From: a virus
Reading direction: 5' to 3' (one strand)
Virus record (IMG/VR): IMGVR_UViG_3300028610_001329
Span: 1-39,974 of that record
DNA: 39,974 nt
The position numbers and the translations under genes are program-made. The notes under the pieces are model-generated. The model saw only the letters and a list, made by a program, of their open reading frames with translations, had not been told where the DNA came from and did no database searches. Position 1 is the stretch's first letter. Each line of letters begins with the position of its first letter. Below, piece by piece: positions 24,962-39,974 of the stretch.

Positions 24962-24992
24962 CCCGGTCAAGATTATTGATCGGGTATTTTTT
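24962..24992. terminator. Strong rho-independent terminator
   Basis: CCCGGTCAA at 24962-24970 pairs with TTGATCGGG at 24976-24984 (one G-T pair), with a 5-base loop, followed by TATTTTTT. It ends the XRE/peptide transcript. The following A-rich stretch and GGGTA...ATCCC symmetry (24982-25002) suggest it also works for the minus-strand transposase gene, whose stop lies at 24991-24993. Confidence 0.85.
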
Positions 24993-25794
24993 AAAAAATC
25001 CCATATTTATTATTATATGCAATATATAGGTCTAGATGTCTCTGCAGGTTTTCTTTCTTTTTAGTTGTGGCTAGTGTTGATCTTCTTAATCTGGAGATAT
25101 CTTGTCTTAACTTGAGACAAGTATAGTTAACTCTCCAGAGCTCTTTACTAGTGCCCTGGTGAGTTTTTAACTTGTGTTGAGGTAAGATTTCCTTAACTTT
25201 GCTTATGTTTATCTTAGCGTGATCACAAGAAATCAAAGATTTGAATGGTAAAACCTTATCCATCTCTAACATCATCTCGGTCATTTTCTGTGGCCTGTCG
25301 GCTATTCTTTTGGCTTCAATTCGAGCTGATTGAGACACCGCTTGGGCTTTTATAGGAATTCTAGCCACTCTGGCTGATATGATTTGACCAGTCTTAACTC
25401 TAACAGCCAGCTCAATGCCTAGAGGGTATTTCTTGCCGCCCTCAAAGGCTTCCATCTCATCGAATTGAACATACTGAGTTATCAGGTCACCACCTTTAAG
25501 CGTCTTAAGATGAGCAATCTCAGCACGATTTGAAGCTTCTATGAAATATTGTGAGACAGTTTTTCTGTTTACATTTAAAACTCTCGAGATGGCTCGTAAT
25601 GACATACCCTCACAATACATATGGAGCATCTTGCTAGCTAAATACTGCTTTTTCTTACAATAATAGCGGGTGTTTGTGCGGTTTGTAAAAGTTACAAAAC
25701 AGGCCTTACATTGAAACCTCTGAACTTTGAGGCCTTTTGCTTTGTAGCTACCTTTTTTCCTGATGTTTATCGAATTGCAATTTTTACAGATCAT
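24991..25794 (-). CDS. IS1-like transposase-family protein
   Basis: ATG at 25792-25794 on the minus strand with AGGAG nine bases upstream. The 267-residue protein has an N-terminal zinc ribbon (C3, C6, C29, C32), a helix-turn-helix at about 60-85 (MSLRAISRVLNVNRKTVSQY), then a DDE-like domain: D112 in QFDEMEAFE, D191 in ISCDHAK, and a C-terminal LWRVNYTCLKLRQDISRL. IS1 enzymes carry Glu where this has Trp (W220); E218 is nearby. It may be inactive, domesticated, or use a shifted residue. It reads inward from the right inverted repeat. Confidence 0.8.
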   Translation of the reverse strand: MICKNCNSINIRKKGSYKAKGLKVQRFQCKACFVTFTNRTNTRYYCKKKQYLASKMLHMYCEGMSLRAISRVLNVNRKTVSQYFIEASNRAEIAHLKTLKGGDLITQYVQFDEMEAFEGGKKYPLGIELAVRVKTGQIISARVARIPIKAQAVSQSARIEAKRIADRPQKMTEMMLEMDKVLPFKSLISCDHAKINISKVKEILPQHKLKTHQGTSKELWRVNYTCLKLRQDISRLRRSTLATTKKKENLQRHLDLYIAYNNKYGIF

Positions 25795-26002
25795 GTCTAT
25801 CTCCTATACAATCCTATCGGACCAAAGGCTCATAGGCTTTAGTGAAATAATTACAAATAAAAAACGGGATATTAGCTACTTAGAGTGGTAATCTTAATTT
25901 GAAACACAACCTATAACCAATTATCTGGGCCACCATAGAAAAATAACAATATACAAAGGTAAATAATTCAAGTAATCGTCTGTGATTAATGGAGGTGAAG
26001 AA
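25795..26002. other. Divergent intergenic region before the early genes
   Basis: This 208-base gap separates the minus-strand transposase gene from erf. It holds the right inverted repeat (25913-25937) and the ribosome-binding sites of both genes. TTGAAA at 25899-25904 and TATAAC at 25912-25917 are possible boxes, but their spacing does not make a good + strand promoter. A short CCTAT/ATAGG inverted pair lies at 25813-25836. An early promoter must be near here but I cannot place it. Confidence 0.4.
25913..25937 (-). repeat. Right 25-bp inverted repeat and inward promoter
   Basis: Read on the minus strand it begins TATGGTGGCCCAGATAATTG and continues GTTAT. It carries the same GATAAT (25920-25925). 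With TTGTTA at 25944-25949 on the minus strand, 18 bases away, this makes a plausible promoter for the transposase-family gene that starts at 25794. Confidence 0.65.
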
Positions 26003-26677
26003 ATGGAACAACAACAAATTTTTAAAGCAATGCCTAAAATCATGGGCGAAGTTGAAGCAATCGGTAAAAAAAAAGGTGGTAATTTAAATTATAAATTTAG
26101 AGGTATTGATGATGTTTACAATGCGTTAAATAAGGTAATGGCCGACAATGAAGTTTTTACTACTTCTGAAATTTTATCTGAAGAGATTAACGAGATAACT
26201 AGTAAAAATGGCACTCGTGGCTTTCATGCAAAGGTAAAATATAAATGGACTTTTCATGCTGGCGACGGCTCCCATGTTAATCATGAGACCTATGGCGAGG
26301 CCATGGATTATGGAGACAAAGCATTAAATAAATGTATGAGTATCTCTCACAAATATGCCTTGTTCACGGCGTTTTGTATTCCAACGGAAGACCAACAAGA
26401 TCCTGATGAGGTCAAACATGAGATTAAAGAATATAATAATAATCCTGATAAGACCGTCACTCAACCTCAATTAAAGCGGCTTATGGCTATTGCTAATAAG
26501 CGAGAATATGCCAATGAGAATGTCTCTGAAATGATCAAATATTTGTTCAAAAAAGACTCATCAAAAGAGCTCAATATGGGTGAATATGATGAGTTAATTA
26601 AGTTGATTGAGACCAATACTTATCAAGATATTAAGATGCAATTCCATGATGATTTTGAGACCAATATAGTGTTTTAA
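26003..26677 (+). CDS. erf: Erf-type single-strand annealing protein
   Basis: ATG at 26003, with GGAGGTG six bases upstream, is preferred over GTG at 25982. The 224-residue protein matches the ERF superfamily core: NYKFRGIDDVYNALNKVM, then YKWTFHAGDGS, YGEAMDYGDKALNKCMSISH and KYALFTAFCIPTED. The C-terminal part (TVTQPQLKRLMAIANKREY) is a helical DNA- or SSB-interaction module. It anneals homologous single strands in phage recombination and genome circularisation. It opens the early gene block. Confidence 0.92.
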   Translation: MEQQQIFKAMPKIMGEVEAIGKKKGGNLNYKFRGIDDVYNALNKVMADNEVFTTSEILSEEINEITSKNGTRGFHAKVKYKWTFHAGDGSHVNHETYGEAMDYGDKALNKCMSISHKYALFTAFCIPTEDQQDPDEVKHEIKEYNNNPDKTVTQPQLKRLMAIANKREYANENVSEMIKYLFKKDSSKELNMGEYDELIKLIETNTYQDIKMQFHDDFETNIVF

Positions 26678-29995: not shown

Positions 29996-30229
29996 ATGAA
30001 AACATTTTGTAAAGAATTAAAAAAGGCCAGAGAAAAAGCGGGCTATAGTCAGGCACATGTAGCAGAGGTTCTTGAGTATGCCTCTGCTCAATTTGTTAGC
30101 AATTGGGAGAGGAGCCTGTCTATTCCGCCCCTAGAAACATTAGTTTTTTTGCAATCGTTTTATAGAGCGAATACAAAAAAGATGTATTTAGATTATCAAA
30201 AACGTCGTATTAATAGATTGTGGAAATGA
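29996..30229 (+). CDS. Second XRE/Cro-type regulator
   Basis: ATG at 29996, just after the ParB-like stop. The 77-residue protein is an HTH_3 domain (LKKAREKAGYSQAHVAEVLE, then SAQFVSNWERSLSIPPLETL) with a short basic tail. Unlike the XRE protein in the cassette, it is co-directional with and likely co-transcribed with the early genes, which fits a Cro-like or late regulator role. Confidence 0.85.
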   Translation: MKTFCKELKKAREKAGYSQAHVAEVLEYASAQFVSNWERSLSIPPLETLVFLQSFYRANTKKMYLDYQKRRINRLWK

Positions 30230-30297: not shown

Positions 30298-30320
30298 TGC
30301 TTAAGTTGAATCTAATTGTT

Positions 30321-30345
30321 GTGGGTCTCTTGGGGCCCACGTTTT
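30321..30345 (+). terminator. Rho-independent terminator of the early block
   Basis: GTGGGTC at 30321-30327 pairs with GGCCCAC at 30334-30340 (one G-T pair), with a 6-base loop, followed by GTTTT. It separates the replication/regulation unit from the accessory genes. Confidence 0.8.
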
Positions 30346-30397
30346 AATATGTTGGTGATAAAAGTTAGAAGTAAGTGTATAGCATAGGAAGAAATAA

Positions 30398-30769
30398 ATG
30401 AGATTAAGGCAGGGCAGCGAGCTTAAATCGTTACAATCAAGGCTTGTTAAGTTGCAAGAAAAAGAGAAGGGCGCTCTCGCTGAGCTGAATGACGCCCGTA
30501 ACTCTTATGAGAAAATTAAAAACCAAACCGCACAAATACAAGATAAAATTAAGAATATCTCAAACAAACCTAAAAAAATTGTAGTCACAGAACATGCAAC
30601 GCTTAGGTTTATTGAACGAGTTAAGGGTATAAATATTGAGACAATAAACAAAGAGATTCTTGATAAGATCGGAAATATTGAAAACACAGGGAGTGTGACG
30701 ATTAAAGCTGATAATTATCGAATAGTAATAAAAAACAATTCAGTGGTTTCGATATTAGAGGCCACATAA
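30398..30769 (+). CDS. Coiled coil plus possible RNase-like C-terminal domain
   Basis: ATG at 30398 with AGGAAG upstream. Residues 1-55 form a coiled coil (LKSLQSRLVKLQEKEKGALA). From residue 65 there is a compact domain: VTEHATLRFIERVKGINIET, then beta strands (VTIKADNYRIVIKNNSVVSI). The H-x-x-x-R-x-x-E-R pattern followed by a strand with NNSVVS recalls the DUF4258/BECR-type ribonuclease fold. This is a resemblance seen by eye. The gene starts a new transcription unit after the terminator. Confidence 0.6.
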   Translation: MRLRQGSELKSLQSRLVKLQEKEKGALAELNDARNSYEKIKNQTAQIQDKIKNISNKPKKIVVTEHATLRFIERVKGINIETINKEILDKIGNIENTGSVTIKADNYRIVIKNNSVVSILEAT

Positions 30770-30805
30770 GATTAATAGAACTCTCGGTCGTGATTGGAGA
30801 AGTGA

Positions 30806-31087
30806 GTGGACTTTAAGGAAGTGAAAGAAATAGCCAAAAAAGAGAAATGGGAGCCTATTGAGGGTGTTTCTGACCCTTATATGGTGTCTTTTTCGCGCTC
30901 TTTCCAGGGCCACCCAGCTCGAATCAATGTTTGGATCGGCAAGCGCGGCATTACGGTAGGGACTTATATCAATCATCCAAAACAAGGCAAAACTCAGTTG
31001 TTTCGTAGGCATGTCACCAAGAAGCTGATGAAGAAATTATTTAAGAATCCAAGGGAGCATACATCCCATGGGTATAAGAACAGTTAG
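30806..31087 (+). CDS. Small conserved phage protein (93 aa)
   Basis: GTG at 30806 with TGGAGA upstream. The N-terminal half is charged, the core beta-rich (MVSFSRSFQGHPARINVWIG, then ITVGTYINHPKQGKTQLFRR), and the end is basic (NPREHTSHGYKNS). The phrase GTYxxHPxxGKTQLFRR is one I associate with a widespread unnamed phage family. Function unknown. Confidence 0.75.
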   Translation: MDFKEVKEIAKKEKWEPIEGVSDPYMVSFSRSFQGHPARINVWIGKRGITVGTYINHPKQGKTQLFRRHVTKKLMKKLFKNPREHTSHGYKNS

Positions 31088-31117
31088 AAGGAAGTTAACC
31101 CAATAAGGAGAAATACA

Positions 31118-31411
31118 GTGGCAAATAAGATAGCAGCATTAATCACCACGGATAACACCAAGCGCGGAGTTTTTATGGGCTTAATTGATCCTGAAGATTC
31201 CGAAAAAGACATTATCACAGCAGAAGAAGTAAGGATGGCTGTCTATTGGCCTAGCGATGTGCACGGCGTTGTCGGGCTGGCGGCGAAAGGCCCAACATCA
31301 GGTTGTCGTATCAGCCCCGCCGCCAAACGAGCCACTCTTAAGGGCGTCACCGCGGTCATGGAGGTGACCGACGAAGCTCTCGCCGCATGGAGAAAGGAAC
31401 CATGGTCATGA
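31118..31411 (+). CDS. DUF6948-like phage protein
   Basis: GTG at 31118 with AAGGAG upstream. The 97-residue protein fits the DUF6948 pattern: KRGVFMGLIDPED, VRMAVYWPSDVHGVVGLAAK, GPTSGCRISPAAK and VTAVMEVTDEALAAWRKEPW. Its 3' half is markedly GC-rich (77 of 120 bases at 31261-31380) compared with its 5' half and neighbours, which suggests recent recombination. It is start-stop coupled to the Gly-rich repeat gene. Function unknown. Confidence 0.75.
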   Translation: MANKIAALITTDNTKRGVFMGLIDPEDSEKDIITAEEVRMAVYWPSDVHGVVGLAAKGPTSGCRISPAAKRATLKGVTAVMEVTDEALAAWRKEPWS

Positions 31412-31743
31412 TTTTTAAAGGTCTACTTAAAAAATTAATTGGCTCTGGCTCTGGCTCTGGCTATGGCGATGGCTCTGGCTCTGGCTCTGGCGATGGCTCT
31501 GGCTCTGGCGATGGCTCTGGCGATGGCTCTGGCTCTGGCTATGGCTCTGGCTCTGGCTATGGCTCTGGCTATGGCTATGGCTATGGCTCTGGCTCTGGCT
31601 ATGGCTCTGGCTATGGCTATGGCTCTGGCTATGGCTCTGGCGATGGCTCTGGCTCTGGCGATGGCTATGGCTATGGCTCTGGCTCTGGCTATGGCTCTGA
31701 AAAAGATTGGTCTAAAGCGGGCGCGGAGGTGTTAAGTGCTTGA
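31408..31743 (+). CDS. Gly-Ser/Tyr/Asp dipeptide-repeat protein
   Basis: I choose ATG at 31408, which overlaps the previous stop as ATGA and lies nine bases after AAGGA; ATGs at 31402 and 31387 are less well spaced. The 111-residue protein has a short start (MIFKGLLKKLI) followed by 43 Gly-x dipeptides in which x is only Ser, Tyr or Asp, and a short end (EKDWSKAGAEVLSA). It is likely disordered and hydrogel- or silk-like. It precedes and overlaps the PcfJ-like gene, an association I recall from other phages. Confidence 0.75.
   Translation: MIFKGLLKKLIGSGSGSGYGDGSGSGSGDGSGSGDGSGDGSGSGYGSGSGYGSGYGYGYGSGSGYGSGYGYGSGYGSGDGSGSGDGYGYGSGSGYGSEKDWSKAGAEVLSA
31441..31698 (+). repeat. 43-unit hexanucleotide repeat (GGCTCT/GGCTAT/GGCGAT)
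   Basis: A continuous array of 258 bases made only of GGCTCT, GGCTAT and GGCGAT units. Gains or losses of units keep the frame. The array is also open in the next frame, giving Ala-Leu/Met repeats, a by-product of the unit. Confidence 0.95.
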
Positions 31744-32419
31744 ACAATTAGAAGAATATGCCACGGGTATTAATGCTAGTCAAGAAGTCTGTGAGTGGCT
31801 CAAAACAGTTGGCAAAAAAGCTCTCTATAAAAAGCAAGCCACTGTGGGTGAGACTGAACACGTTCTAGATTTCTTAAACTCTGATGCGGCACCAGTGCGT
31901 CTAAGGCGAATGAGCTTTCAGGATGCAAAAAGGAAATCCGTAGAGTGGAGTGAGAGAAATCAGAAAAAAGGCCGAGATTTAATAGATTCCTCAGAAGATT
32001 TGGAGTTGATTCACGACTTTCTCGATGGAAAGAAAATAGTTCGGTTGAAAACTAAAAAGGCTTTTCAACGCGAAGGCTTTTTAATGAATCATTGTGTCGG
32101 TGGCTACGATAACGCAAGCCAAGACTGCCTGATCTATTCTTATCGAGATTCTCAGAACATGCCTCATGCAACCTTTGAAATACGCAAAGAAGATAATGAG
32201 ATTGTGCAGATCAAAGGCAAGGGAAATGGCCCAATTCATCCTAAATACATCCATCCAATACTGTCATTTTTAAAGTCAGTGGGAATGGATATTCGGCCAA
32301 GCGATATGAGTAATCTTGGCTATCATCATATTCACAAAAGCCATATTGAATTTTTAAAAACTATTGAAGCGGCGTGGAAGCAAGTCACGATGATTAATGG
32401 TGAGGCTTACGCGCACTAA
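31736..32419 (+). CDS. PcfJ-like protein
   Basis: GTG at 31736 with GGAGG six bases upstream, overlapping the repeat gene by eight bases. The 227-residue protein carries the PcfJ-like core: LKTKKAFQREGFLMNHCVGG YD, IYSYRDSQNMPHATFEIRK, then VQIKGKGNGPIHPKYIHPIL. PcfJ proteins were named from a conjugative plasmid and are common in phages. The conserved HCVGG and Q-x-K-G-x-x-N motifs are present; biochemical role is not established. Confidence 0.85.
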   Translation: MLEQLEEYATGINASQEVCEWLKTVGKKALYKKQATVGETEHVLDFLNSDAAPVRLRRMSFQDAKRKSVEWSERNQKKGRDLIDSSEDLELIHDFLDGKKIVRLKTKKAFQREGFLMNHCVGGYDNASQDCLIYSYRDSQNMPHATFEIRKEDNEIVQIKGKGNGPIHPKYIHPILSFLKSVGMDIRPSDMSNLGYHHIHKSHIEFLKTIEAAWKQVTMINGEAYAH

Positions 32420-32458
32420 AGTTTAGAAGACGTTAACCCTATTAGGAGGAATTAAACA

Positions 32459-32773
32459 ATGAAAGAGGTATTGCTAACAATCATAGGAATCGGGGCTCTT
32501 GTCACGCTTTGGTTCTTCGGTCCAGACATTTATCGATTCATGGGCGGTCGATATGAAGAGGCTAGGCATGGCATCTATAAAGAGAGCACGGCTCATGTTC
32601 ACGGCACAATTGAGCATTTAAACAGGCTTAAATTGGAATATGAAACAGCCGAGACTGATGCTCATAAAATTGCGATACGAGAAACTGCTTTAACATCAAT
32701 GGGCCAAACAGAAGAACATCAACTTCCAAGCCATTTAAGCGCTTGGATCAGAACTTTAAGGGGTAATTACTAA
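32459..32773 (+). CDS. Single-span membrane protein (104 aa)
   Basis: ATG at 32459 with TAGGAGG upstream. Residues 4-22 are a membrane span (VLLTIIGIGALVTLWFFGP). The rest is a soluble helical domain rich in charge and His (STAHVHGTIEHLNRLKLEYE). Its stop shares a base with the following lipoprotein gene, so the two may work together at the cell envelope. Confidence 0.75.
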   Translation: MKEVLLTIIGIGALVTLWFFGPDIYRFMGGRYEEARHGIYKESTAHVHGTIEHLNRLKLEYETAETDAHKIAIRETALTSMGQTEEHQLPSHLSAWIRTLRGNY

Positions 32774-33264
32774 TGAAATTTTTAATTCTACTAATTTTAG
32801 CTGGCCTAACAATGGGAAATGAAGGCTGCAACTCACAACAAACTGGTGACTCTAAGCAGGGTAAGCAAATGGCTAAGGCACAAGCCGAAGCTAATGCTAA
32901 GATTGGACCTCCAGGCATTGTAAACTTTACTGAAAAACGCTTTGCTAAAATGATCTATGAACTGCGCGATAAAGAGGTTAAAACCTATTCCTATTACCTA
33001 GATATGATGGGCAAGAAACATTTTCTTTGTAACTCAATAGGCTATGGTTTACCCGCCAGTGTTCAGTATGTGAATCCAATGAAACCTATTACCGGATGGC
33101 CAGCAAACTATACAGAAACAACAATTCCACAACCAGAACCAAATGGTCTTTTTATGCCCGACAGTTTATCAGCGACCTATGTTTTGTGTATTGATAAAAA
33201 AGGTAAAGTTAAGCCTGTTTATTTTGAACCGCTGTTGATTGTCAGCCCATTTAAGTTGGACTAA
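32773..33264 (+). CDS. Probable lipoprotein (163 aa)
   Basis: ATG at 32773 overlaps the previous stop. The N-terminus MKFLILLILAGLTMGNEGC is a signal sequence with C19 as the possible lipid site, though NEGC is a poor lipobox. A Ser/Gln/Lys-rich tether follows. The conserved-looking part has YELRDKEVKTYSYYLDMMGK, then HFLCNSIGYGLPASVQYVNP and ATYVLCIDKKGKVKPVYFEP. A phage envelope protein, perhaps modifying the host surface; this is inferred. Confidence 0.75.
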   Translation: MKFLILLILAGLTMGNEGCNSQQTGDSKQGKQMAKAQAEANAKIGPPGIVNFTEKRFAKMIYELRDKEVKTYSYYLDMMGKKHFLCNSIGYGLPASVQYVNPMKPITGWPANYTETTIPQPEPNGLFMPDSLSATYVLCIDKKGKVKPVYFEPLLIVSPFKLD

Positions 33265-33307
33265 CTCAACCCGTTGAAGTGAAGTTAACCCTTAATAGGA
33301 GAATATA

Positions 33308-33622
33308 ATGAGTTTAGAAGATGAGTTATCAAAAGTTTTGGCAGATAAAATTACAGAGGTAGCTGAGGAATTATCCAAGTCTGTTACGGCAGACATGGTT
33401 ATGGCTGCTGTCAAAGAGCCTTTAGGCAGATTAATTGATGGCAGAGACCATTCTCGTAGCCATTATTTTTCTGATAAGGTCTTAACGATAGTGACGGAGG
33501 AAGTCGCCCACAAATATGTGTCTGAGAATTATGTCGATCTAGTAAAGAAAATTGACCTAGATTCACTTCAAAAAATATTACACTTGAAAATTGCGGCTGA
33601 TGTAAAACACGCATCGTTATAA
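33308..33622 (+). CDS. Acidic helical protein of unknown function (104 aa)
   Basis: ATG at 33308 with ATAGGAG upstream and a CAAC-CC-GTTG hairpin (33267-33276) in the leader. The product is helical and acidic (LEDELSKVLADKITEVAEEL). No motif or family recognised. Confidence 0.7.
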   Translation: MSLEDELSKVLADKITEVAEELSKSVTADMVMAAVKEPLGRLIDGRDHSRSHYFSDKVLTIVTEEVAHKYVSENYVDLVKKIDLDSLQKILHLKIAADVKHASL

Positions 33623-33660
33623 TTAACGTTTGAAAAACGCTGAGGCGTGAGGAGAGAATT

Positions 33661-34011
33661 ATGGACGTTTTACAACAACTAGTAGACATGGTTAAGGACA
33701 TGCCTAGCCTTGCAATATGGGTCTTGGCGGGGCTGTTAATGTACAAAATAGTAATGATTGGCTCTTGGTTCGGTATTGCCCGGCTGGTGATTCTAAAAGG
33801 CCATGAGTGTATAGTTAAGCCCCGAAAAAAAGAATACCTCTTTGGCAGTCACTTTATCGGTGGCGCTGGGATTGCAAACGAATTTCTAGGCCTGATAGCT
33901 AGCATTAAGAACTCAAACGGCAGTAGTTACGTTTCTGAGTATGTCCATGATGGTGATTTGTCATGGTTTCGAGAGGCAATTAATGACAAGAAGCTAAAAG
34001 ACAAAAAGTAA
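33661..34011 (+). CDS. Membrane-associated protein (116 aa)
   Basis: ATG at 33661 with GAGGAGAG upstream. One membrane span at about residues 15-34 (SLAIWVLAGLLMYKIVMIGS) and a basic, mixed C-terminal domain (KPRKKEYLFGSHFIGGAG). Preceded by the recurring leader with hairpin ACGC-TGAG-GCGT at 33637-33648. Function unknown. Confidence 0.7.
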   Translation: MDVLQQLVDMVKDMPSLAIWVLAGLLMYKIVMIGSWFGIARLVILKGHECIVKPRKKEYLFGSHFIGGAGIANEFLGLIASIKNSNGSSYVSEYVHDGDLSWFREAINDKKLKDKK

Positions 34012-34053
34012 CTCAACGAGTTTTAGAAACGTTACCAGCTCGGGAGGGCTAAT

Positions 34054-34368
34054 ATGGACTATTGGGCAGAGTGTGTAAATGAGGCATTTGAAGATGCTGG
34101 CATCACTGCAACCAAAGAACAGACCGACACGGTTATTAGCTGGGTTGAAGGCGCGCACGAAAACTATGGTATGTCTCACGGTCACGATTGCATTCCTGAT
34201 CCAAGAGATACTGAGCTTGATAATCTTAAGGCCGCCCATAAAAAAGAGGTTGAGCGGCTAGAAAATAGAGAGCTTTGTTATCAGAAAAGCGTAGCTCAGC
34301 GACGAAACGTACCTGTTGGTGATGTGTATTTAGATGACTATGGCACGGTTAGGTACGACCGGAGATAA
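34054..34368 (+). CDS. Conserved phage protein of unknown function (104 aa)
   Basis: ATG at 34054 after GGGAGGGC. It starts MDYWAECVNEAFEDAGITAT and has VEGAHENYGMSHGHDCIPDP, phrases I recognise from small proteins in many phages, followed by a charged helix (LDNLKAAHKKEVERLENREL). No function is established for that family. Confidence 0.75.
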   Translation: MDYWAECVNEAFEDAGITATKEQTDTVISWVEGAHENYGMSHGHDCIPDPRDTELDNLKAAHKKEVERLENRELCYQKSVAQRRNVPVGDVYLDDYGTVRYDRR

Positions 34369-34398
34369 TTAAAGTTTAAGTAACGCGCAGGAGTTAAA

Positions 34399-34539
34399 AT
34401 GCTTTTATCAGCCGATCAGCGTTTTATTTTAAGAATGAATAGGCGAGGGCATGAAACTGTAATTGGCGGATGTTTAGAAATAAAAATTGCATGGTTGAAA
34501 CTTATTAGAGAAATAAAAAGAGAACTAAAGTTAATCTAA
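34399..34539 (+). CDS. Small basic protein (46 aa)
   Basis: ATG at 34399 with CAGGAG upstream. The product (MLLSADQRFILRMNRRGHET, then VIGGCLEIKIAWLKLIREIK and RELKLI) is basic and helical. It has its own leader of the recurring AACG type (34382-34393). Function unknown. Confidence 0.65.
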   Translation: MLLSADQRFILRMNRRGHETVIGGCLEIKIAWLKLIREIKRELKLI

Positions 34540-34564
34540 CGCTAGGGCTATGAGGAGAGAATGA

Positions 34565-34822
34565 ATGAAGAAAAGGATTTTAAAATATCCAGTGCACGCG
34601 GTCCAGGCAACAGAGATGCCTTTGGATGCCGAAATAGTAAAGTTTGATTTTCAAAATTCAACGCCTACTGTTTGGGCCGTGACAGTAGACTCTGAGAAAT
34701 GCGGTCTGAGAAAATTAAGAGTAGTAGCAACGGGACAAGCAGTGCCGTTGAGATGGAAATATATTGATACCGCTTTTGATGGTCCTTTTGTTTGGCACCT
34801 TTATCTTGAGCCGTGGGACTAA
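34565..34822 (+). CDS. DUF7352-like phage protein
   Basis: ATG at 34565 with GAGGAGAG upstream. The 85-residue beta-rich protein shows the pattern YPVHAVQATEMPLDAEIVKF, then TPTVWAVTVD, RKLRVVATGQAVP and FVWHLYLEPWD, which I recognise as a small phage family (DUF7352). Function unknown. Confidence 0.7.
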   Translation: MKKRILKYPVHAVQATEMPLDAEIVKFDFQNSTPTVWAVTVDSEKCGLRKLRVVATGQAVPLRWKYIDTAFDGPFVWHLYLEPWD

Positions 34823-34830
34823 AACAACAG

Positions 34831-34863
34831 CCCCCTAAAGGGGGATATTAACCCTGAGAGGGT
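34831..34863 (+). promoter_or_regulatory. Double hairpin in the gap after 34822
   Basis: CCCCC-TAAA-GGGGG (34831-34844) is followed by ACCCT-GAG-AGGGT (34851-34863). The first lacks a T-run and is not a classical terminator. The second lies directly before GAGATG, so it would cover or expose the ribosome-binding site of the 9-residue leader frame at 34867. Confidence 0.5.
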
Positions 34864-34866
34864 GAG

Positions 34867-34896
34867 ATGAACGTTATTAAAACGGGTGATGTGTGA
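34867..34896 (+). CDS. Possible 9-residue leader peptide
   Basis: ATG at 34867 follows the perfect hairpin ACCCT-GAG-AGGGT and reads MNVIKTGDV before TGA at 34894-34896. That stop overlaps the GTG start of the next gene (GTGTGA), so translation of the short frame could deliver ribosomes to it. Confidence 0.3.
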   Translation: MNVIKTGDV

Positions 34897-35057
34897 GAAA
34901 GCAAATAAGGGACTGTGAGGATTGCGGAGAATGGCAGGAGCAAATTACCTACTGTCCTGAATTTGACGTCGACCTTTGTTCCTACTGTGCCGATCAAAGA
35001 GATAAGCAGGAACAAAACGCAGAGCTCTATGACGATGAAGAATCAATGTGGAGTTAA
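34893..35057 (+). CDS. Small zinc-binding acidic protein (54 aa)
   Basis: GTG at 34893 after ACGGGTGAT. It encodes MRKQIRDCEDCGEWQEQITY, with C-x2-C, a further Cys in YCPEF and LCSYC later, followed by an acidic tail. The CxxC...CxxC arrangement indicates a zinc ribbon. Its leader closely matches that of the gene at 37398 (AACG...AAAACGGGTGA). Function unknown. Confidence 0.65.
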   Translation: MRKQIRDCEDCGEWQEQITYCPEFDVDLCSYCADQRDKQEQNAELYDDEESMWS

Positions 35058-35093
35058 AGTAAGAAACACGCGTGAGCGGTGAGGAGCAATATA

Positions 35094-35498
35094 GTGGACA
35101 CAGAGGGCAAAATAAAAGTCACGACCGTAGAACTTAGGAAGCCTGCGACAATAGTAATGGCTATGACTATTACTGACATGGTTAAAGAGCAGGAGGGTGT
35201 TTTACAGGAAATAAAAGAGCAAAATCAATTCATCGACAACTTAAGAGAATCTCTAAACACATCTGAAAAAGAGGTTTTTAAATTACAGGATGAGATTGAT
35301 GAGCTTAAAGACAAAAACGAATCGGCAGACCCACAAGACGATTTTACTTGTCCAGTAGAGTGGAAAGAATATTACGGCGATGACGGCAATAAGGTTCTGT
35401 GTCCTTTTACCTTAGATAAGTCGATAAATTGGTGGGAGTTAAAGGGTAAAAAAGGCACTTTTACATTTAGAGAAGAAACAGAGTCAGCACAAGTCTAA
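35094..35498 (+). CDS. Coiled-coil protein of unknown function (134 aa)
   Basis: GTG at 35094 with GAGGAG upstream is chosen over GTG at 35079, which lies inside the Shine-Dalgarno region. Residues about 28-78 are a coiled coil (VLQEIKEQNQFIDNLRESLN). A C-terminal domain with two Cys (DDFTCPVEWKEYYGDDGNKV, LCPFTLDK) follows. Leader of the recurring type at 35065-35086. Confidence 0.7.
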   Translation: MDTEGKIKVTTVELRKPATIVMAMTITDMVKEQEGVLQEIKEQNQFIDNLRESLNTSEKEVFKLQDEIDELKDKNESADPQDDFTCPVEWKEYYGDDGNKVLCPFTLDKSINWWELKGKKGTFTFREETESAQV

Positions 35499-35523
35499 CC
35501 AACTCGCCTAGTGGGAGAACGAA

Positions 35524-35700
35524 ATGAACGGCATTACAATAGAGACTGATGGTGTTGGATTTATGATTATACACATGGATGGCTACAACCTGATTTTGTA
35601 TGTTGACTCTGAGTACCAAGGTCTTTTGGAATTCGATACACTTAAAGATGCAGAGTATGGCTTGAGATGTTGGAAGCGATTAGCCGACCACAAGTATTAA
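35524..35700 (+). CDS. Small phage protein (58 aa)
   Basis: ATG at 35524 with GGGAG upstream. The product is beta-rich at first (MNGITIETDGVGFMIIHMDG, YNLILYVDSEYQG) and ends in a helix (AEYGLRCWKRLADHKY). It lies in the run of small genes each with its own leader. No family recognised. Confidence 0.65.
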   Translation: MNGITIETDGVGFMIIHMDGYNLILYVDSEYQGLLEFDTLKDAEYGLRCWKRLADHKY

Positions 35701-35736
35701 CTTTAACCAAACGCTGAGGCGTGGAGGAGTAATATA

Positions 35737-36117
35737 GTGGCTAAGATATTGAAAACAAAAAAAGATAAACAGCAATTCACGCGGTGGTTAAAAGCATTGA
35801 GGTCTGAAAAATATAGTCAGTGTAGAGGCAGACTGCAGGGCCCCGATGGGTTTTGTTGCTTGGGAGTGGCTTGTGATGTGCTCATACCTGATAAAGAAAA
35901 GCACATGAGTGGGGATTTTTTATCGGGTTATTTCCCAAATCATCAGGCCGCACCGCAATGGTTAAATCATGTCAATTGTGATTTTTCTGAAAAAACAAAA
36001 ATAGAGGGTAAGAGTCAAAACTTATCAGAAATGAATGATAATCAAAGCATGCCTTTTGCGCTAATAGCAGATTGCCTTGAGATTGTTTATGAGAATGAAC
36101 TCAACGAGTTTAAATGA
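35737..36117 (+). CDS. Conserved phage protein with CCLGV motif
   Basis: GTG at 35737 after GGAGGAG, with the hairpin leader ACGC-TGAG-GCGT at 35711-35722, nearly identical to that at 33637. The 126-residue protein has FTRWLKALRSEKYSQCRGRL, GFCCLGVACDVLIPD, LSEMNDNQSMPFALIADCLE: the recurrent pattern of a widespread but uncharacterised phage and bacterial family. Cys residues may bind metal. Confidence 0.75.
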   Translation: MAKILKTKKDKQQFTRWLKALRSEKYSQCRGRLQGPDGFCCLGVACDVLIPDKEKHMSGDFLSGYFPNHQAAPQWLNHVNCDFSEKTKIEGKSQNLSEMNDNQSMPFALIADCLEIVYENELNEFK

Positions 36118-36141
36118 AGTACAGGCTTGAAAGGGCGATAT

Positions 36142-36402
36142 ATGAGTTTTGAAGAAAATAGAAAAGAAAAGCTGCACATACTCAATTGTCATAATAATTG
36201 GAGTAACCAAGAATCCGAGATCTGGTTATGGGGCACAGACTGGGCCAAGCAAGAGGCCATCCCTTTGATGAGTGAGCTTTACCACGCCTATAAACAAAAG
36301 TCGCGGCTTGAAAGATCCAGGGTTGAGCATGATCTCTGCCGAAAGGTTGAGCGGTTTCTTTATGCAAATGAGGCCGAAGTTGCCCCGGTGGTGACGAAAT
36401 GA
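36142..36402 (+). CDS. Small helical protein (86 aa)
   Basis: ATG at 36142 with GAAAGGG upstream is preferred over TTG at 36127. The product (MSFEENRKEKLHILNCHNNW; ELYHAYKQKSRLERSRVEHD) is helical and charged. Its start MSFE resembles that of the protein at 37556. Overlaps the next start by four bases. Confidence 0.65.
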   Translation: MSFEENRKEKLHILNCHNNWSNQESEIWLWGTDWAKQEAIPLMSELYHAYKQKSRLERSRVEHDLCRKVERFLYANEAEVAPVVTK

Positions 36403-36647
36403 GTTGGGTTTTAAATAACAACAAGGTTTTTCATGGGCCATCAATCTCAGAAGCAGAATTCATAAAGGTTATCGGAATGAGTGAACATTACGCCGTGATT
36501 GATCGGCTAAAAGCCAATATCAAAGAACTTACTGAGGTCGCTGAGATTTGGATGAATGACTACGACAAATTAAAGGCTAAATATGAGCCAAGTGTTTTGG
36601 TTGAGAGTACAAGTGATGTCGAAGCTAGCTCTAAGGGGGAGTCGTGA
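36399..36647 (+). CDS. Small helical protein (82 aa)
   Basis: ATG at 36399 overlaps the previous stop (ATGA). Middle part is a coiled-coil-like helix (YAVIDRLKANIKELTEVAEI). Part of a tight group of five overlapping genes (36142-37376) without individual leaders. Function unknown. Confidence 0.65.
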   Translation: MSWVLNNNKVFHGPSISEAEFIKVIGMSEHYAVIDRLKANIKELTEVAEIWMNDYDKLKAKYEPSVLVESTSDVEASSKGES

Positions 36648-36877
36648 AGAGACTTGATGAATTAGAAGAAGAAGGCCCAATGGCTAACGGTGAGATTATA
36701 TTGAAACTGATCAAAACAATCAGAACTCAGTGTGTGGCTCTTAAGACTTTATATTTTGATGAGGAGATATGTTCATGTTGTGAAGATAATTTTGAGGTAA
36801 AAAAAGAAGCCTTGGGGCAAACAGAGAAAGACTGGGGCAAAGATACTGCTGACGTTAATAGTGGCGGTGACAAATAA
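36644..36877 (+). CDS. Small protein with CSCC motif (77 aa)
   Basis: GTG at 36644 overlaps the previous stop and has GGGGAG upstream. It contains the compact motif EEICSCCEDNFEV and an acidic tail. Overlaps the next ATG by one base. No family recognised. Confidence 0.6.
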   Translation: MKRLDELEEEGPMANGEIILKLIKTIRTQCVALKTLYFDEEICSCCEDNFEVKKEALGQTEKDWGKDTADVNSGGDK

Positions 36878-37170
36878 TGGACCAGTGCCAGCATTGCCTT
36901 GAGTATCATATACCAGACAAGGTCTGTGACGAGTATATCGAGGCCGTTAGAAAAGGGAGGGTGACAGTGGCAAAGCTACGCATCGTTTATCACGAGGGCA
37001 TAGGTTGGGTGCCGAAGTCGGCTTATGACGACGCTATGGCACTACTTAGTAAGATGTCTGAGGTTGTTGGCACACACGCAGCATTGGGGCAAGAGAAGTG
37101 TATCGCTCTTATGGATCAATATAAGAAGATCACAGATAACACAGAAGTTAAGCCTGCGGGGGAGAAATGA
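36877..37170 (+). CDS. Small protein with CxxC and a shared SAYD module (97 aa)
   Basis: ATG at 36877. The N-terminus has CQHCLEYHIPDKVC, a possible zinc site. The middle (YHEGIGWVPKSAYDDAMALL) resembles HEDGVIHVIEKSAYDKAVLT in the protein at 27959, showing reuse of a small module in two distant gene groups. Function unknown. Confidence 0.65.
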   Translation: MDQCQHCLEYHIPDKVCDEYIEAVRKGRVTVAKLRIVYHEGIGWVPKSAYDDAMALLSKMSEVVGTHAALGQEKCIALMDQYKKITDNTEVKPAGEK

Positions 37171-37376
37171 TCGACAGCACACAGGTATTTAAGAATCATG
37201 ACTTTAAAACTTTCACGTGGTCAACCCTACACAAAAAAGTGGTTCAAATTGTGGTAAGTGAGCCGACTGATTCAGATATTAACGAAGGTAATTTTATGGC
37301 CCAAGTAATGGCTATGGACGATAAGTTGAATCTTTATGTAATAGATGAATGGGATATAAGAAAAGAAGTAAAGTAA
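37167..37376 (+). CDS. Small phage protein (69 aa)
   Basis: ATG at 37167 overlaps the previous stop and follows GGGGGAG. Beta-rich (FTWSTLHKKVVQIVVSEPTD; DDKLNLYVIDEWDI). Last of the overlapping group. Not recognised. Confidence 0.65.
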   Translation: MIDSTQVFKNHDFKTFTWSTLHKKVVQIVVSEPTDSDINEGNFMAQVMAMDDKLNLYVIDEWDIRKEVK

Positions 37377-37397
37377 CGTTTGCAAAACGGGTGACGT

Positions 37398-37526
37398 ATG
37401 AATTGGATTAAAAAACTATTCCACAGACATAAATGGATAGACCATGATTGGAAAAAAGAGAGTCAATTCTGCTCGTGCGGAGCGACTCGCCACTGGCTTT
37501 ATCAAAGATGTGAGTGGTCGGATTAA
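37398..37526 (+). CDS. Trp/His/Cys-rich small protein (42 aa)
   Basis: ATG at 37398 after ACGGGTGACGT. It encodes MNWIKKLFHRHKWIDHDWKK, then CSCGATRHWLYQRCEW. His and Cys residues could make a zinc site; the pattern FxRHKW...CxC resembles small prophage zinc fingers. Its leader, AACGTTTGCAAAACGGGTGA, has a CGTTT/AAACG stem. Confidence 0.6.
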   Translation: MNWIKKLFHRHKWIDHDWKKESQFCSCGATRHWLYQRCEWSD

Positions 37527-37555
37527 CTGAACGCTCTATGCATGAGAGGCAACAC

Positions 37556-37975
37556 ATGAGTTTTGAAGATAAAGCATATGAACTTTTTGAAAAGACGTAT
37601 CCGAATACATGTAGAATGCCTAGTGGTGATAAATGGCCAATTGAGAAGAGTAAAACTTTACAATTAATTCATGAGGCTTTTGATTTGGCCAAGCAAGAGC
37701 AAGAGGGCGCAGCGGAAATAAGCAGAGATTGTCCACTATGCCCAAAGGGTAAATTGGCCTATGAGAAGACGGTTGAATATGGAGTGAATTGCATCATTGA
37801 AAGGTGCGGCTCTTGCGATGAATACATAACTAGGGGTGACGTTTGGGGTAGGGTAGAATCTAAAATATTCTTAGATCGTATCAAATCAGGTGAGACAGAA
37901 ATCGAAGAACTTAAAAACGAAATTGCTCATCTGTGTAAAGAAGTACATAGGCTAGAAAATTTAGCAGCATATTAG
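37556..37975 (+). CDS. Zinc-ribbon-like phage protein (139 aa)
   Basis: ATG at 37556 with GAGAGG upstream; the upstream in-frame GTG at 37514 lies in the previous gene. The N-terminal half is helical (MSFEDKAYELFEKTYPNTCR). The middle holds CPLCPKGKLAYEKTVEYGVN and ERCGSCDEYI, a CxxC...CxxC zinc ribbon. The end is a coiled coil. Function unknown. Confidence 0.7.
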   Translation: MSFEDKAYELFEKTYPNTCRMPSGDKWPIEKSKTLQLIHEAFDLAKQEQEGAAEISRDCPLCPKGKLAYEKTVEYGVNCIIERCGSCDEYITRGDVWGRVESKIFLDRIKSGETEIEELKNEIAHLCKEVHRLENLAAY

Positions 37976-38007
37976 CGTTAGAGAAAATTCAATAGTATGG
38001 GAGACAA

Positions 38008-38499
38008 ATGAAGCGTATTAAGGCATCAAATAGAGATGTAGAAATTATTATAGACGATAAACACCACCCCCTCATCAAAAAATATAAGTGGTGGATATTT
38101 AAGATCAAAAAACAATATTATGCTAGGGCCAGGATTAGCGGCAAAGATATTTACTTGCATCAAATGATAATGGGCAGTCCTCCTGTTTATAATTTTGCAG
38201 TGGACCATATAAATCATGACACTCTCGACAACAGAGAAGAAAACCTTAGGTGGGTATCTAAGCAAAAGAATTCTAATAACTTGAGGGCGGGCCCATGTCA
38301 TTCTCAATATATTGGAGTCACAAAATCAAGAAGTAAAAACAAGCCGTGGAAAGCCTCGATAATGAAAAGTGGCATAAGATACCCGCTTGGATTCTTTGAA
38401 AATGAAATAGATGCCGCTGAGGCATATGACAAAAAGTCGGTTGAGTTAAATGGCGAATTTGCTCCGGTAAATTTTCTACCTACTCAACCCGCTAGCTAA
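38008..38499 (+). CDS. HNH homing endonuclease with AP2 domain
   Basis: ATG at 38008 with GGGAGA upstream. The 163-residue protein has an HNH core (IYLHQMIMG, then VDHINHDTLDNREENLRWVS and KQKNSNN) and a C-terminal AP2/ERF DNA-binding domain (YIGVTKSRSKNKPWKASIMK, LGFFENEIDAAEAYDKKSVE). This combination is typical of free-standing phage homing endonucleases, selfish genes that cut related phages lacking them. Confidence 0.92.
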   Translation: MKRIKASNRDVEIIIDDKHHPLIKKYKWWIFKIKKQYYARARISGKDIYLHQMIMGSPPVYNFAVDHINHDTLDNREENLRWVSKQKNSNNLRAGPCHSQYIGVTKSRSKNKPWKASIMKSGIRYPLGFFENEIDAAEAYDKKSVELNGEFAPVNFLPTQPAS

Positions 38500-38527
38500 A
38501 CGCTCGGTAGAGCAGGGAGAATATAGA

Positions 38528-38947
38528 ATGGAACCAGTACAAAAATTTAAGGCCGATGATGGAACGCTTTTTGATGACCCAGAAAAGGCAGAGAAAAGAG
38601 ATCGGCTGATTTCAAAAATTAGCCTTTTAAAGAAAACAGTAAGGGCTGACGAAGTTGAGGAGGGATGCAGCTTTAGCAACGGTGATGGATTTAAGCAGCT
38701 TACACAGGCCGCCGTGGACACTTTTACATATGAATTAGAGCAGATCATTGAAGACGAGCATGGTGAAGAATATGCTAAGATGTTCAAGAAAAAACCCAAA
38801 GGAATTATTGGTCGCTATCTGTGTGATTCCGGGGGCCCTGTAAACAATTTGTACCAATATATACTTTGCATCGATTCAAGTAACAGACTATGGGGGCAGC
38901 CTTATTTTGCTATTAACCCACATCAAGGAAAACAAGTCGCTCTTTAG
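38528..38947 (+). CDS. Phage protein of unknown function (139 aa)
   Basis: ATG at 38528 with AGGGAG upstream and a GCTC-GGTA-GAGC hairpin in the leader (38503-38514). The start VQKFKADDGTLFDDPEKAEK is a phrase seen in small phage proteins that I recall from several genomes. A helical middle and a beta-rich end (LYQYILCIDSSNRLWGQPYF) follow. Function unknown. Confidence 0.7.
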   Translation: MEPVQKFKADDGTLFDDPEKAEKRDRLISKISLLKKTVRADEVEEGCSFSNGDGFKQLTQAAVDTFTYELEQIIEDEHGEEYAKMFKKKPKGIIGRYLCDSGGPVNNLYQYILCIDSSNRLWGQPYFAINPHQGKQVAL

Positions 38948-38979
38948 AGCACGAGTTATAGAGAAGTTAAGGGCTGAAA

Positions 38980-39816: not shown

Positions 39817-39974
39817 ATATGGATATAAACACACATATTCAACCGACATCATTGAACACATCAGAGCTGGTAACTCATTAGAAGACTTTGCAAAGCTCAA
39901 ATGCGTCACTGTTGACTCTGTTTATCTATGGTTTGAGAAATATCCTGAATTTTATACATCTTATAAAATCGCAA
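39803..39974 (+). CDS. HTH protein, N-terminal part (continues at base 1)
   Basis: ATG at 39803 lies inside the RusA gene end and opens MSRLKYGYKHTYSTDIIEHI. Within this copy it runs off the window; on the circle it continues to base 167, giving 64 residues. See the entry at 1-167 for the helix-turn-helix and its similarity to the small terminase. Confidence 0.75.
   Translation, partial: MSRLKYGYKHTYSTDIIEHIRAGNSLEDFAKLKCVTVDSVYLWFEKYPEFYTSYKIA
39831..39974. repeat. Right copy of 144-bp terminal direct repeat
   Basis: Exact second copy of bases 1-144. It starts 28 bases into the gene that begins at 39803 and carries that gene back to the start of the window. Confidence 0.95.

Follow-up and report, generated by a model that had tools for sequence, protein, structure and literature searches.

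Eighteen gaps ahead of small rightward genes in a viral record of 39,974 bases (IMG/VR IMGVR_UViG_3300028610_001329, analysed whole and called the window here) have in common one two-box motif of 16-17 nucleotides (nt). The copies span 30361-38968 (30.3-39.0 kb), and their consensus, ARMGTT-N5-AAMGYT, consists of two half-sites of about 6 nt (box 1 and box 2) with centres 11 nt apart. Judging from the sequence, we give even chances to the reading that these gaps carry one start-associated cis-regulatory element, recognised as sequence by a putative protein that is probably encoded by the phage. The original prediction had described a recurring leader design in these gaps, built from AACG-type sequences or hairpins ahead of the Shine-Dalgarno sequence (SD). 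A recurring design was indeed present in the gaps it listed and in additional ones, but as a single two-box motif rather than as several distinct hairpin designs.

Recurrence of the motif far exceeded that expected from base composition. The gaps had 32 pairs of common 8-mers, compared to 3.9 +/- 2.5 after dinucleotide shuffling, and none of 500 shuffles reached the observed number, although this count includes the SD. An unbiased search for a 16-nt motif was restricted to positions -60 to -13 of 17 starts, which excludes most of the SD, and gave a motif score of 224, compared to 148 +/- 5 for shuffles and 150 +/- 7 for random stretches. With all 18 leaders the score was 223.5 against 150.8 +/- 5.3 in dinucleotide shuffles (z ~14), and it stayed high after look-alike copies were removed (z 10.1). 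The same search on control sets found no comparable motif at 18 starts of structural (late) genes (z 1.7) or at 18 other early starts (z 0.5). Held-out models, applied to both strands, placed the sites among the best-scoring 0.00003 to 0.0075 of all positions. The site at 30361 was recovered by a model trained without it. The comparison with shuffled gaps that the original prediction had named as a possible refutation came out clearly in favour of a sequence model.

The two half-sites are held at a defined distance from each other and from the SD. Ahead of the element-bearing starts, pairs of [AC]G[CT]T occurred 8 times at a distance of 11 nt, compared to 0.31 expected, with none at distance 10 and one at distance 12. 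Box 1 begins 23-25 nt before the SD in 14 of 17 measured copies (the other three at 15, 16 and 21 nt), the second half-site lies about 12-14 nt before the SD, and the 17-nt pair is placed about 9 nt ahead of it. Relative to the start codon, box 1 is found 26-39 nt upstream in the 18 copies, and the conserved block occupies about 21-40 nt ahead of the start. The position of box 1 varied much less with respect to the SD (standard deviation 2.8 nt) than to the upstream stop codon (11.4 nt). In the short gaps (34527, 36105, 37364) the element reaches into the last part of the preceding gene, indicating that it belongs to the downstream start. The SD itself is ordinary, and the bases flanking it are not conserved. 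Four leaders also have ACTCAAC(G/C) in common ahead of the first half-site (33262, 34009, 36097, 38486), perhaps an additional box or a remnant of shared ancestry.

The element is oriented with the genes: at a score of 6, all 16 SD-linked matches were on the coding strand. Columns of the averaged motif were more symmetric as an inverted repeat (0.82) than as a direct repeat (0.71), two arrangements that are hard to separate because the half-site is nearly palindromic, and three copies (33625, 34870, 37375) fit the motif in either orientation. All copies are listed in the table below, together with two neighbouring features.

Coordinates of the element copies, the candidate reader gene and the terminator-like hairpin in the window
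Feature	Position	Strand	Sequence	Remarks
Element of gene 30398	30361..30377	+	AAAGTTAGAAGTAAGTG	held-out score 10.3; box 1 to start 35 nt
Element of gene 31118	31080..31096	+	ACAGTTAGAAGGAAGTT	
Element of gene 32459	32418..32434	+	AAAGTTTAGAAGACGTT	
Element of gene 33308	33270..33286	+	CCCGTTGAAGTGAAGTT	
Element of gene 33661	33625..33641	+	AACGTTTGAAAAACGCT	second half-site is the 33636 copy of the original prediction
Element of gene 34054	34017..34033	+	CGAGTTTTAGAAACGTT	
Element of gene 34399	34371..34387	+	AAAGTTTAAGTAACGCG	box 1 to SD just 16 nt
Element of gene 34565	34527..34543	+	AAAGTTAATCTAACGCT	first half within end of upstream gene
Element of gene 34893	34859..34875	+	AGGGTGAGATGAACGTT	equally good second register AACGTTATTAAAACG at 34870-34884
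Element of gene 35094	35056..35072	+	AAAGTAAGAAACACGCG	
Element of gene 35524	35490..35506	+	CAAGTCTAACCAACTCG	weakest copy; held-out scores 1.6 and 2.4
Element of gene 35737	35699..35715	+	AACTTTAACCAAACGCT	
Element of gene 36142	36105..36121	+	CGAGTTTAAATGAAGTA	largely within end of upstream gene
Element of gene 37398	37364..37380	+	AGAAGTAAAGTAACGTT	second register AACGTTTGCAAAACG at 37375-37389
Element of gene 37556	37519..37535	+	CGGATTAACTGAACGCT	
Element of gene 38008 (HNH endonuclease)	37974..37990	+	AGCGTTAGAGAAAATTC	
Element of gene 38528	38488..38504	+	CCCGCTAGCTAAACGCT	
Element of gene 38980	38952..38968	+	CGAGTTATAGAGAAGTT	box 1 to SD just 15 nt
77-aa XRE-type helix-turn-helix protein, candidate reader	29996..30229	+		Pfam HTH_3 29 bits, cut-off 23
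Intrinsic-terminator-like hairpin	30320..30341	+		directly ahead of first element

Proteins encoded in the leader block had no BLASTP match to one another at E 0.01, showing that the same leader precedes unrelated genes. Gene duplication was considered as the origin of the leader similarity and rejected for this lack of paralogy. The suggestion that a family of related leaders stands before many small genes thus held up, with the leaders positioned by the downstream start and the genes themselves non-paralogous.

Whether the leaders act as RNA hairpins was examined at the level of single gaps and of the family. Every string quoted in the original prediction was located, at most 1 nt from where it had been placed: AACGCTGAGGCGTG at 33636 and 35710, AACGCTAGGGCTATGAGGAG at 34538, AACACGCGTGAGCGGTGAGG at 35065, AACGTT...AAAACGGGTGA at 34870 and 37375, GCTCGGTAGAGC at 38502, and AACTCAACGAGTT at 34010 and 36098. 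Good single stems are formed at 33636, 35710, 37375 and 38502, and at these sites and at 34870 the stem ends where the ribosome-binding site starts, as had been claimed, but this does not extend to the family as a whole. Folding energies of 19 gaps were unremarkable (mean z -0.28, combined p 0.13). Of 17 gaps, 7 had a stem directly adjoining the SD, compared to 5.0 +/- 1.7 in shuffles (p 0.20). For a stem between box 1 and box 2, 57.8% of cells could pair, below the 62.2% obtained with shuffled partners, and two-sided changes were likewise fewer than in shuffles. RNAalifold predicted zero pairs for the 18 aligned leaders, and an Rfam search matched no family. As regards structure, the refuting tests that the original prediction had set for itself thus went against an RNA hairpin. 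The view that the leaders are hairpins serving RNA processing, protection or insulation therefore has to set its few good stems against no excess over shuffles, an empty consensus fold and less pairing than with shuffled partners, and we consider it the least probable of all explanations. No positive evidence emerged for processing, insulation or recombination between modules, the roles originally proposed. The hairpins that had been noticed are explained by the palindromic nature of AACGTT-like half-sites and by several single spacers that chance to fold. Folding energy was notable in two gaps only, that of 38497 and the long gap 34565/34893. The latter contains a perfect C5-TAAA-G5-type hairpin (34830-34846), with no run of T residues on the coding strand.

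Among explanations that do not depend on a hairpin, an RNA-level translation element is possible, if on balance unlikely. Here half-sites in the mRNA would tune initiation, either close to the 30S subunit or as binding sites of an RNA-binding protein, a role also proposed for the start-linked SAS repeats of cluster K phages. The rigid distance to the SD (23-25 nt from box 1 in 14/17), unrelated to the upstream stop, and the confinement of SD-linked copies to the coding strand both fit such a role, but there is neither a conserved structure nor an Rfam family, and the dyad symmetry of the averaged motif would not be needed for single-stranded recognition. A phage-specific promoter, with box 2 as a -10-like box, box 1 as an upstream box and a very short leader starting at the SD, seems improbable to us. 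The terminator-like hairpin just ahead of the first element means that the block may need its own transcription start, and a sigma factor is encoded by phages of clusters EC and EI, whose motifs are similar (PMC7302621). Against a promoter, the stretch between box 2 and the SD is rich in G+C (47%, compared to 26% ahead of late SDs), a start-site consensus is absent, sigma-70-like sites occur at chance (34 vs 36.7 expected), and the proteins scanned included no recognisable sigma factor or RNA polymerase.

It is more doubtful still, and in our view very improbable, that the leaders are recombination joints, kept as short homologies by which an ERF-type recombinase shuffles gene modules. Similar leaders do precede unrelated genes, an ERF recombinase is encoded at 26003, and a few pairs share longer runs, such as 15 nt between 33637 and 35711. 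Most leader pairs, however, have only the degenerate boxes in common, not enough for homologous exchange. Joints of this kind would not account for the constant spacing to the SD, and no relative was found with a swapped gene plus its leader.

As far as the sequence allows, we favour binding of a phage protein to an operator-like site, with RNA-level action as the next best reading. Within the protein-binding reading we lean towards DNA-level binding (operator or stoperator-like) over binding to mRNA, since dyad symmetry shows in the averaged motif but base pairs are not kept in single copies. This combination, symmetry on average without pairing in individual copies, would be the look of a protein-binding site. 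A dimeric helix-turn-helix protein would grip the two half-sites, which lie one helical turn apart, and unrelated accessory genes dropped into the block would be expressed or silenced together. The reader would most likely come from the phage itself, with the XRE protein (29996) as a candidate; its gene directly precedes the leader block, and its sequence matched the ICEBs1 Xre regulator 7t8i in phmmer (E 5e-7). A single-sequence AlphaFold model of this protein was of low confidence and was not used. A more specific version is rather unlikely: each gene of the accessory block would have, at a constant distance upstream of its SD, an operator to which the XRE-type regulator binds, giving one phage-wide switch on elongation or translation initiation. 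If it is true, any gene acquired behind a leader falls under the phage-wide switch, making the leader a plug-in control tag for accessory genes.

Several observations weigh against recognition by such a protein. A DNA operator needs no tight coupling to the SD, and an RNA-level role fits equally well. An early promoter might be expected to have its operator in the long intergenic stretch 25794-26003, which gave no match to the element. The register is ambiguous at genes 34893 and 37398, and the copy at 35524 is near background. Relatives (57% for TerL, 72% for the major head protein, MCP) lack the element, as far as their early regions were readable. The functional claim for the element rests on recurrence within this genome and on spacing.

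Relatives were sought in IMG/VR with TerL, MCP, ParB, HNH, ERF and one small-gene protein, and in GTDB contigs with MCP. The nearest ones found resemble this phage in the head module (MCP 54-72%, TerL 54-57%), and readable early regions were available in two bacterial metagenome-assembled genome (MAG) contigs and two viral contigs. In these four regions the genes were different and the leaders absent; SD-linked matches in the two MAG contigs numbered 0 and 0 to 1. Gaps upstream of HNH homologues in contigs L041 and L042 also lacked the leader, and homologues of the leader genes in named phages were few and distant. Two DNA pattern scans of IMG/VR returned 0 and 29 loci, and neither revealed a genome that carries the leaders as a set. 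The 29 loci were chance matches, apart from an unrelated operator-like site that recurs in four contigs of nearly the same sequence. In unrelated viral contigs (L061, 4994-5024, and also L067, L069 and L080), GAACGTTAGATGAACGTTCGTTGAACAAGGAGG contains three AACGTT-like repeats in 11-bp steps that end at the SD of the first gene past a divergent region, an operator-like arrangement. A head-protein relative (contigs L056 and L057) has a near-identical AAAGGAGAAAACAA ribosome-binding stretch ahead of many genes, a further instance of start contexts that recur.

The genome itself carries a 144-bp direct terminal repeat (1-144 and 39831-39974), indicating a complete circular map of ~39.83 kb. Its terminase, major head protein and tape measure identify it, by sequence, as a siphophage. 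The non-structural part encodes the ERF recombinase (26003), a ParB-like protein, HNH nucleases and RusA, and the leader block, whose genes are mostly unnamed, lies between ParB/XRE (29.2-30.2 kb) on one side and RusA (39.4 kb) on the other. An IS1-family transposase-like gene (24991-25794, minus strand) lies in reverse orientation between the late and early blocks (NF033558 E 5e-19, under its cut-off); its 267-aa helix-turn-helix product had been considered as a sigma factor and was rejected as IS1-like. Within the leader block, 31408-31743 (plus strand) encodes a 111-aa protein that is largely a Gly/Ser/Tyr/Asp repeat (GSGSGYGSGDG...), with DNA repeats of 12 and 18 nt.

Start-linked repeats (SAS/ESAS and the EC, EG and EI motifs) have been noted in actinobacteriophages since 2011, and several systems resemble the present element in part. 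T4-type phages have PeSL cassettes, an early promoter plus a stem-loop (Arbiol 2010, Comeau 2014; as cited in PMC4503421). Going by that citation, these cassettes also recur in the gaps that separate small non-essential genes and have been proposed to aid module shuffling, but neither part recurs in the present gaps, where promoter-like sites and stems occur at chance. In cluster A mycobacteriophages, L5 among them, the immunity repressor binds 13-bp stoperators in intergenic spaces and promoter regions (PMC9283540). Stoperators are likewise numerous, short, intergenic and oriented with transcription, and are gripped in two successive major grooves; in the present phage, in contrast, the distance to the SD is fixed, no site was found in region 25794-26003, and no such repressor was found.

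Cluster K mycobacteriophages have the start-associated sequence (SAS), GGGATAGGAGCCC, a 13-bp repeat that contains the SD and lies 3-7 bp from the start, and upstream of it the extended SAS (ESAS), a pair of 17-bp inverted-repeat half-sites, for which the authors found little support for mRNA hairpins (PMC3203893). The present element is similarly start-linked, gene-oriented, limited to non-structural genes and placed before different gene families. It differs in that its conserved part is upstream of an ordinary SD, about 21-40 nt before the start, and its half-sites are about 6 nt with centres 11 nt apart rather than 17 bp each.

The best positional match is the 18-bp motif of Microbacterium cluster EC phages such as Quhwah, which has related repeats in clusters EI and EG; cluster EF phages, which go with the SAS/ESAS kind, have repeated motifs as well (PMC7302621). 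The EC, EI and EG motifs number about 5-12 copies per genome and occur in short intergenic gaps 14-30 bp upstream of start codons, that of EC in a single orientation ahead of the ribosome-binding site, and their function is unknown (PMC7302621). Position before the ribosome-binding site, uniform orientation and high copy number (here 18, in short gaps) are common to the EC motif and ours, and cluster EI phages carry ParB-like and Erf genes (PMC7302621), as does the present phage. Yet the EC consensus, TAGaCTCTaGGTgTaAgC, is unrelated to ARMGTT-N5-AAMGYT, the EG motif is an inverted repeat, and EC, EG and EI phages infect Actinobacteria, with a sigma factor encoded by EC and EI and none recognised here. 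The element would thus be a fresh example of known start-linked phage repeats of unexplained function, and its unrelated sequence suggests that the start-linked arrangement arose more than once. A copy-rich example with measured spacing and a candidate reader nearby provides a testable model, one that would explain how the phage keeps control over a changing set of accessory genes.

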